Origin: Thermothelomyces thermophilus ATCC 42464
Lineage: Eukaryota > Ascomycota > Sordariomycetes > Sordariales > Chaetomiaceae
Direction: 5' to 3'
DNA length: 64,000 nt
Assembly: GCF_000226095.1 (NCBI RefSeq)
Contig: NC_016474.1
Location: 1,302,001-1,366,000 of the forward strand
Below the pieces are notes generated by a model that was not told the DNA's origin, made no database searches, and worked only from the letters and a program-made list of their open reading frames with translations. The translations under genes were made by a program, and so were the position numbers. Shown in pieces: positions 52,496 through 54,630 of the stretch (positions are counted from its first letter, which is position 1; each line of letters begins with the position of its first letter).

Positions 52496-54630
52496 ATGGT
52501 CCGACCTTACGACCCGACCTTGACGGAAACCGCAGTCCGAGTAGACCCTCGAGACTCGAGGGAATACGCCGGCAACCAAGAAGCGTCTCCCCTCTATGAC
52601 ATATGCCACCACCCGGAGAAGTACACTAACGTGCGGTATTTCGATCGGGAGATGGTTGTGCTCGACGATGCGAACGCAAAGGTATTACCTAACCTGCTCG
52701 CCTACACTTCTTTTCTTCTTCGCCTTCTCAAATCCGGCTTCACTGACACTCGAGGATCAACGCCGTTTGATGCAGTCACCCGACCACGTCATCCTCATGC
52801 CGCGAGACACGTCAATCAAAGAGATGGCCTGCTTGAAGACCAAACACCTTCCGCTGCTGTATCGATTCCGCGACCAAGCGCACAGGGAGATCGAGCGCAT
52901 GATGCGGGTCGATCCCGGGAGGATCCCGATGTTTCGGGTCGGCTTCCACACGATACCCAGCCTCTTCCCCCTCCACTGCCACGTGCACGACTGCTCCCTC
53001 AGCACCGACAAGATGTTCCATGCCCGGCACTGGAAGGTCAACTTCTCCAACATGTTCGTCGCCTTGGACAGGGTCATCGAGGAGATCGAACGGACCGGGC
53101 GGATCGAGGTGGATGCCGACGCCTACAGGCACGACTGGCGGACCAGGCCGATCCGCTGCCCGGTGTGTCCCGGCCGGCAACCCCAGTGGGAGGCCGACAT
53201 CACCGAGCTCGCCGCCCACTGGCGCCGACACGTCGACGAGTGGAAGTCCGGCCGGGCCCCGCTCCCGCCCAACGTCACGCCGGCAAGGCTTTGGGAGCCG
53301 TCGTACCCGGTCATCTTGACCACCCGGAGGCGCTCCGGCTTCCTGGGTCTCCTCGGCGATGAGCTGGACCACTTGAAGGCAGAGTTCCCGGGGCTCGAGA
53401 TCCACTCCTACTACACAGACGAGTGGCCACGGATCCCCAAGTACGTGCTCGACAAGACCACCGTCTACCTCTCGGCGGCTGAGCTGCCGCCGCCCGGGTA
53501 CAGCCTCCCGCGGCTCGAATGGGTCCACCTCGGCTCCTCGGGGCTCGACCTGCTCGCGGCGCACCCGTACAACACCCACCACCATCGCGGCCTCCGCGTG
53601 ACCTCGAGCACGGGCTCCGGCTCCGAGGCCGTCGCCGAGTGGGTGCTGATGAACACCATGTTCCTGACCCGCCGCATGGGCGCCGCGCTCCGGAACCAGG
53701 CCGGGCGCGAGTGGGCGCCTCGGGCGCTGACGGGCTTCCGGACCATCAGCCAGCTGTCGGTCGGCATCGTCGGCTTCGGCTCCATCGGCCGGCACGTCGC
53801 CGAGCGCTTCCTCGCCCTGGGCGCCAGGAAGGTCACCGCCGTCAACACGACCGGCCCGCCCCTGTCGTCGTCGTCATCATCCTCCCCCTGTGGCTACTCG
53901 CGGCTGGGCGAGGTGACGGTCCTTCCTCTCCTCCAACGAGGGGGAGATGGAAAGCCCGAAGCAAGAGGTGGTGGCGGCGACGACGACGACGAAAAGGACG
54001 GCCTGCGTGAGTTCCTCCGCGACCAGGACGTCCTCGTCCTGGCCGCCCCGCTCACGCCGGAGACGCGCGGGCTGATCGGCGGGGCCGAGCTGGCGGCGCT
54101 GCCCCTGGGCGCCGTCGTGCTCAACGTCGCGCGCGGGCCCCTGCTGGACGAGCGCGCCCTGGCCGAGCGCCTCCGGAGCGGGCACCTGGCCGGGGCGGCC
54201 ATCGACGTGGCCGACCAGGAGCCCCTGGATGCGGCGAGTCCCCTCTGGGACGTGCCGAATCTCGTCATCACCCCCCACGTATCCGCTTTCCACAGCAAGG
54301 TAATTAAGCGATGCTTTTCTTCTTTCTTTTGTTTGTTAAACAAGAAACAAGGGAGAAAACCCCAAAAGAATTGAATCAAGTAATATCCGTCAAGTAATAT
54401 CTCCGTCAGATGCTAACCCCACGCGAAACCAGTACAACCAAAACATGCTCGCCATCTTTGAACACAACTTGCGAGCTCACCTCTGCCACAGGCCGGTAAC
54501 GGAAATGAGGAATGTGGTTCAGCTGCCAGTGCCATCCGAGCCGTCGCCGCTAGGCTCGAAATCAAACGCGGCCCCGAAACGACCAACCAAGACCGCGTAT
54601 GCTGTCAAAGAGAGCAGCAGCAAAAACTAG
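52496..54630 (+). CDS. Aprataxin-like HIT/zinc-finger domain fused to D-2-hydroxyacid dehydrogenase
   Basis: Three exons, 52496-52681, 52776-54299 and 54433-54630, give 635 aa. Part one resembles aprataxin/Hnt3, which removes 5'-AMP from aborted DNA ligation ends: DHVILMPRDTSIKEM, FRVGFHTIPSLFPLHCHVHD with the HIT triad His129-x-His131-x-His133 (the last being the expected nucleophile region), HWKVNFSN, and a C2H2 finger Cys190, Cys193, His210, His214. Part two, from about residue 225, is a D-isomer-specific 2-hydroxyacid dehydrogenase. It has the NAD-binding GFGSIG (395-400), the catalytic set Arg515 (NVARG), Glu544 (DVADQEP) and His563 (TPHVSA), then a C-terminal cap (YNQNMLAIFEHNLRAHL). 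No stop, no intron and no Met separate the two parts: the long exon 2 runs straight through. The start could lie further upstream. Confidence 0.85.

Follow-up and report, generated by a model that had tools for sequence, protein, structure and literature searches.

One gene or two?

Does a single gene of Thermothelomyces thermophilus ATCC 42464 join an aprataxin-type HIT/zinc-finger module to a D-2-hydroxyacid dehydrogenase and, if so, what would such a protein do? The question arose from an earlier note on a 64,000-nucleotide stretch of contig NC_016474.1 (positions 1,302,001 to 1,366,000, forward strand), here called the window, whose numbering is used throughout unless another contig is named. 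The gene lies at 52496..54630 (+), has three exons and encodes a 635-residue product. We found that the fusion is one protein, with a conserved and apparently undescribed architecture drawn from two known families. The coordinates of the gene and the numbering of the finger ligands (C190, C193, H210, H214), the glycine motif (G395, G397, G400) and the dehydrogenase catalytic residues (R515, E544, H563) all proved correct.

Both introns were placed by their GT and AG ends and by agreement with relatives. Intron 1 (52682..52775 (+), 94 bases, GT..AG) follows K62, at a splice site also implied by relatives P0001-P0009, and intron 2 (54300..54432 (+), 133 bases, GT..AG) falls near the end of the gene. 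The one continuous frame initially described therefore holds across the join but not for the whole gene. Neither intron is at the join of the HIT-zinc and dehydrogenase halves, which lies inside exon 2 (52776..54299 (+)), a single exon carrying the remainder of the HIT domain, the zinc finger, the join and the bulk of the dehydrogenase. Exon 2 is stop-free over 508 codons, whereas only 2 of 2000 order-1 random sequences of equal composition were open throughout. Third-position G+C was 0.90-0.92 in three windows around the join and 0.70-0.98 across the exon. There is no in-frame ATG between M155 and M354 and the dehydrogenase domain starts near residue 239, so that a separate dehydrogenase would have no ATG start at the join. 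The absence of stop, intron and Met from the join, as first reported, was thus borne out; the end of the finger helix and the linker to the dehydrogenase (residues 215-238, 53232..53303 (+)) are Met-free. Exon 1 (52496..52681 (+)) supplies the start codon, a conserved N-terminal 25-30 residues, a short alpha-1 segment and the first HIT strands including D58 and K62, and exon 3 (54433..54630 (+)) the final dehydrogenase helix, a weakly conserved tail and the stop codon.

The fusion in relatives

Our searches for relatives relied on shared 5-residue words. With the whole product as query, the 7992 best-sharing candidates were scored and 60 proteins were found, 15 of which contained both Pfam domains, confirming the fused architecture outside the query. 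Nine of these 15 came from Thermothelomyces, Corynascus, Chaetomidium, Chaetomium and Achaetomium, which, like the source of the query, belong to the Chaetomiaceae; a match from Thermothelomyces heterothallicus had 97% identity to the query. Part of the HIT-zinc half was present in four further proteins (P0015, P0016, P0018 and P0019), and the remaining 41 had PF02826 without a HIT domain. Pieces of the fusion were also held by two Helotiales genera, Leptodontidium and Leptodophora (P0019, P0065).

The join is crossed by P0001-P0009 and by P0010-P0017. The latter start within or just before exon 2, and those reaching intron 2 stop there; they look like single-exon readings of fungal DNA, from which we infer that the open join is present in the sequence of other organisms. 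The possibility that homologues are encoded as two separate genes, named at the outset as a check, gave no clear pair in these searches (best 120 of 813 hits listed in the dehydrogenase search). Three short dehydrogenase-only proteins (P0066-P0068) did turn up; because none covers the whole dehydrogenase in the family alignment, we took them for probable fragments. A search with the HIT-zinc half found six proteins, none of them a clean standalone relative, although the word-based search missed ordinary aprataxins and distant ones can escape it: P0061 continues into the dehydrogenase sequence, P0062 and P0063 look either fragmentary or decayed, P0064 has exon 1 and is then out of frame, and P0019 and P0065 contain dehydrogenase.

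Among the 20 relatives with both parts scored, identity to the query was higher for the HIT part than for the dehydrogenase, many rows covering HIT only partly (P0009, 76 versus 58%; P0006, 78 versus 70%; P0007, 71 versus 68%). Finger identity exceeded that of the dehydrogenase in 17 of 21 relatives, equalled it in P0013 and was lower in three (P0006, 68 versus 70%; P0007, 65 versus 68%; P0008, 61 versus 68%). Since the HIT part is better kept than the dehydrogenase, the HIT half is not a decaying passenger. The conserved fusion and the open exon across the join led us to reject a sequencing or annotation artefact. A literature search for aprataxin and 2-hydroxyacid dehydrogenase together found no such enzyme and no similar fusion, in agreement with the earlier note; its scope left out most subscription papers and all preprints.

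Several relatives appear damaged or misannotated. P0019 and P0065 look decayed, with identical ends in mid-dehydrogenase, as does P0062, which has Gln for H120 and departs from the family sequence past the finger. The gene models are seemingly erroneous for P0018 (HIT core skipped, unrelated sequence at the end), P0002 (GxGxxG absent) and P0004 (part of the CPxC loop absent).

The HIT-zinc half

Three Pfam models exceeded their cut-offs in the fusion protein: DcpS_C (residues 34-145, 3.7e-19), which was the top-scoring HIT model, HIT (1.5e-4) and 2-Hacid_dh_C (1.8e-43). The scavenger decapping enzyme DcpS has the HIT fold in common with the fusion. The FHA domain, which human aprataxin carries at its N-terminus, was not matched in the Pfam scan. 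The zf-C2HE model was also under its cut-off in the fusion protein (12.9 bits versus 30.1, E 0.15), although it matched at E<=1 in six of seven members tested, query included (best 0.0017). The aprataxin-like C2H2 finger (53157..53231 (+)) was accordingly upheld by conservation, alignment to human aprataxin and the predicted model, on which its assignment rests, and not by Pfam. Its loop has 16 residues, compared with 13 in S. pombe Hnt3, whose finger is of the C2HE type.

Structure prediction, suggested at the outset as a check, points to an aprataxin fold for this half: a fold search with the HIT-zinc model returned human aprataxin first, with both HIT and finger covered. The predicted HIT and C-terminal zinc-finger fold is thus common to the fusion and to aprataxin (human APTX, S. 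pombe Hnt3), as are the nucleophilic His and the His that follows it. The fusion differs in its first triad residue, in its apparent wedge residues and in the dehydrogenase added behind.

The catalytic motif had been read as HxHxH at H129, H131 and H133. Alignment to human aprataxin (SHVHLHV) shifts this reading: the catalytic motif is P127-L-H129-C-H131 (52968..52982 (+)), in which P127 takes the place of the first triad His, H129 that of the nucleophile and H131 that of the third His. In the conservation table of fusion relatives (20 rows, counts being made over rows with a letter at the position), H129 and H131 are kept in 18/18 rows, whereas H133 occurs in 3/18, the query and its two nearest relatives only. 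In S. pombe Hnt3 the first triad position is occupied by Asn, so P127 alone is no argument for inactivity and the full triad is not strictly defining. In the same enzyme, an excerpt of PMC4499129 reports that Ala at His147 or His149 abolishes activity. The motif of the fusion is therefore compatible with catalysis. D58, K62, H66 and H120 match ribose-binding and active-site residues of aprataxin, and each is conserved wherever a table row has a letter.

The wedge and the ordinary aprataxin

An excerpt of PMC6043908 describes His166 and Trp167 on helix alpha-1 of human aprataxin as splitting the DNA nick. The equivalent positions of the fusion, counted back from aligned blocks and possibly off by one or two residues, are Gln28 (11/11) and Glu/Gln29 (12/12), and the aromatic double-barbed wedge appears to be absent. 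Every register tried puts the pair on residues 27-30, where no His or aromatic residue occurs in rows with a confident N-terminus. This apparent loss argues against a standard nicked-DNA substrate, without proving the point.

Apart from the fusion, the genome encodes an ordinary aprataxin on contig C6 (1945592-1945894 (-), locus L005), with a HIT domain, a C2HE-type finger and an HLHVH motif. Early in the alpha-1 helix it carries Trp at a position that is Phe in S. pombe, and its frame is intron-free at the site matching intron 1 of the fusion gene. The link to DNA-end repair that had been floated for the fusion was not supported, given the apparently replaced wedge residues and this second gene.

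The dehydrogenase half

The part of the D-2-hydroxyacid dehydrogenase encoded by exon 2 covers residues 239-570 (53304..54299 (+)), with GxGxxG at 395-400. Its top sequence match among solved structures was Haloferax D2-HDH (5mh5, 4.9e-33). The motif residues G395, G397 and G400 are kept in 19/20 rows, with a gap in P0002, and R515, E544 and H563 in 19/20 rows, with a gap in P0019. GxGxxG and the Arg/Glu/His triad are common to the fusion and the D-2-hydroxyacid dehydrogenases of PF02826 (Haloferax 5mh5, Thermus 2cuk), which differ from it in that the fused enzyme sits behind a HIT-zinc module and on its own long branch.

PF00389, the catalytic half, was unmatched in the Pfam scan. Foldseek paired approximately the whole length of solved members, at a template modelling (TM) score to target of 0.35-0.59 and a root mean square deviation of ~12-14 Å, values that mark the dehydrogenase half as poorly modelled. 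The full-length model is of low confidence, with a predicted local distance difference test (pLDDT) score of 57.5 and a predicted TM score of 0.47, and its fold search confirms only the dehydrogenase family. No NCBIfam model exceeded its cut-off in the fusion protein (best, 167 bits of 400), and for that reason the substrate of the dehydrogenase cannot be named.

We built a dehydrogenase tree of 113 sequences: 7 members of the fusion family, 99 taken from the 120 listed hits (of 813) and 7 paralogue frames of the query genome, leaving out the partial frames L016, L017, L018 and L020 and the short P0066-P0068. The fusion clade stood by itself, on a branch as long as 1.2, next to one sequence (support 0.72, then 0.42), and was not close to any of the seven paralogue frames. 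Among the best 120 of 813 hits listed, the named organisms outside the fusion were bacteria. The dehydrogenase may or may not have been acquired from bacteria.

Within the dehydrogenase, residues 423-466 (53856-53987) form a Ser-, Gly- and Asp-rich stretch from short repeats, which is long in all three rows from Thermothelomyces, the remaining rows having a shorter one.

A probable hydrolase-reductase

The overall explanation that we favour, and consider fairly probable, is a two-module single protein in which an aprataxin-derived hydrolase with a new substrate is joined to a 2-oxoacid reductase. Both catalytic residue sets look usable, and it is from them that we infer the two activities. The N-terminal module would be a divergent aprataxin paralogue, a nucleotidyl hydrolase of the HIT type carrying a C2H2 finger, that cleaves a nucleoside-monophosphoryl bond through a covalent His129-nucleoside monophosphate intermediate; D58 and K62 would hold the ribose, and H66 and H131 would assist. 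Because the wedge seems gone and the genome has an ordinary aprataxin as well, this module probably acts on some smaller or otherwise different nucleotidylated molecule and not on nicked adenylated DNA, which aprataxin repairs. The C-terminal module would reduce a 2-oxoacid with NAD(P)H. How the two might be coupled is a guess; the most economical would be removal of adenosine monophosphate (AMP) from an adenylated 2-oxo- or 2-hydroxy-acid and reduction or oxidation of the freed acid next door. Such a two-step enzyme, in which a former repair hydrolase strips the nucleotide from a small adenylated acid and passes the acid to the fused dehydrogenase, would make the protein an aprataxin offshoot moved into metabolism; we hold this stronger version to be possible but unlikely.

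Several observations weigh against the two-module hydrolase-reductase. The first triad His is replaced by P127 in 18/18 rows, leaving the full HxHxH triad incomplete, and a Pro at this position could distort the catalytic loop. P0062, outside the conservation table, has Gln at the H120 position. In the structural alignments the first paired residue is 25 or 26 of the model versus human 163 to 165, with the wedge pair outside any printed column, and the model is weak there (pLDDT under 50 for residues 1-26). The full-length model is uninformative on the relative placement of the two halves, nothing was found linking their substrates and none of 10 scanned neighbours suggests a pathway. Dehydrogenase-only proteins do exist, namely P0066 (246 residues), P0067 (200 residues) and P0068 (206 residues, from Humicola hyalothermophila); none spans the entire dehydrogenase in the family alignment, and they may be fragments, decayed copies or real standalone proteins.

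The same Pro in 18/18 rows, together with the apparent loss of the wedge, would also fit a non-catalytic HIT-zinc half that binds nucleotide or nucleic acid and places or regulates an ordinary D-2-hydroxyacid dehydrogenase. We think this improbable: the nucleophile, charge-relay and ribose-binding residues are conserved in the table rows, and the S. pombe enzyme is likewise without the first His. About equally doubtful is a second aprataxin, whose HIT-zinc half removes AMP from DNA or RNA ends while the dehydrogenase senses NAD(H) or provides a scaffold for oligomerisation, so that repair is coupled to redox state. The predicted aprataxin fold across HIT and finger and the kept catalytic residues speak for it, and the structural relatives of the dehydrogenase half include, from rank 9 on, the NAD(H)-binding regulator CtBP, but the wedge residues are apparently replaced, the ordinary aprataxin is encoded on C6 and the dehydrogenase retains a catalytic triad that a pure sensor would not need. 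We rate a repair link as less likely than the hydrolase-reductase, with its new nucleotidyl substrate. It is very improbable that an erroneous gene model or a sequencing error has joined two adjacent genes: models are often merged in fungal annotation, P0018 resembles a chimeric model and P0066-P0068 are dehydrogenase-only, but the join lies within an open exon with no ATG for the second half, both P0001-P0009 and P0010-P0017 cross it and the three short proteins do not span a whole dehydrogenase.

If both halves of the proposed hydrolase-reductase are active, a DNA-repair fold would have changed its substrate and been wired to redox metabolism. The apparently lost wedge and the kept active site offer a clear and cheap test of what sets the substrate of aprataxin. 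Several public entries from these fungi named 'D-isomer specific 2-hydroxyacid dehydrogenase' contain a second, possibly catalytic domain.

Neighbouring and overlapping frames

Ten neighbouring frames were scanned unspliced against Pfam. Four matched, to a voltage-gated chloride channel, a pentatricopeptide repeat (PPR) protein, neurochondrin and, weakly and under the cut-off, AIM3; six were without a match. This Pfam content does not support a biosynthetic gene cluster. On the opposite strand of exon 2, a 353-residue frame is open at 52812-53873 (-), probably as a shadow of the high-G+C coding strand.
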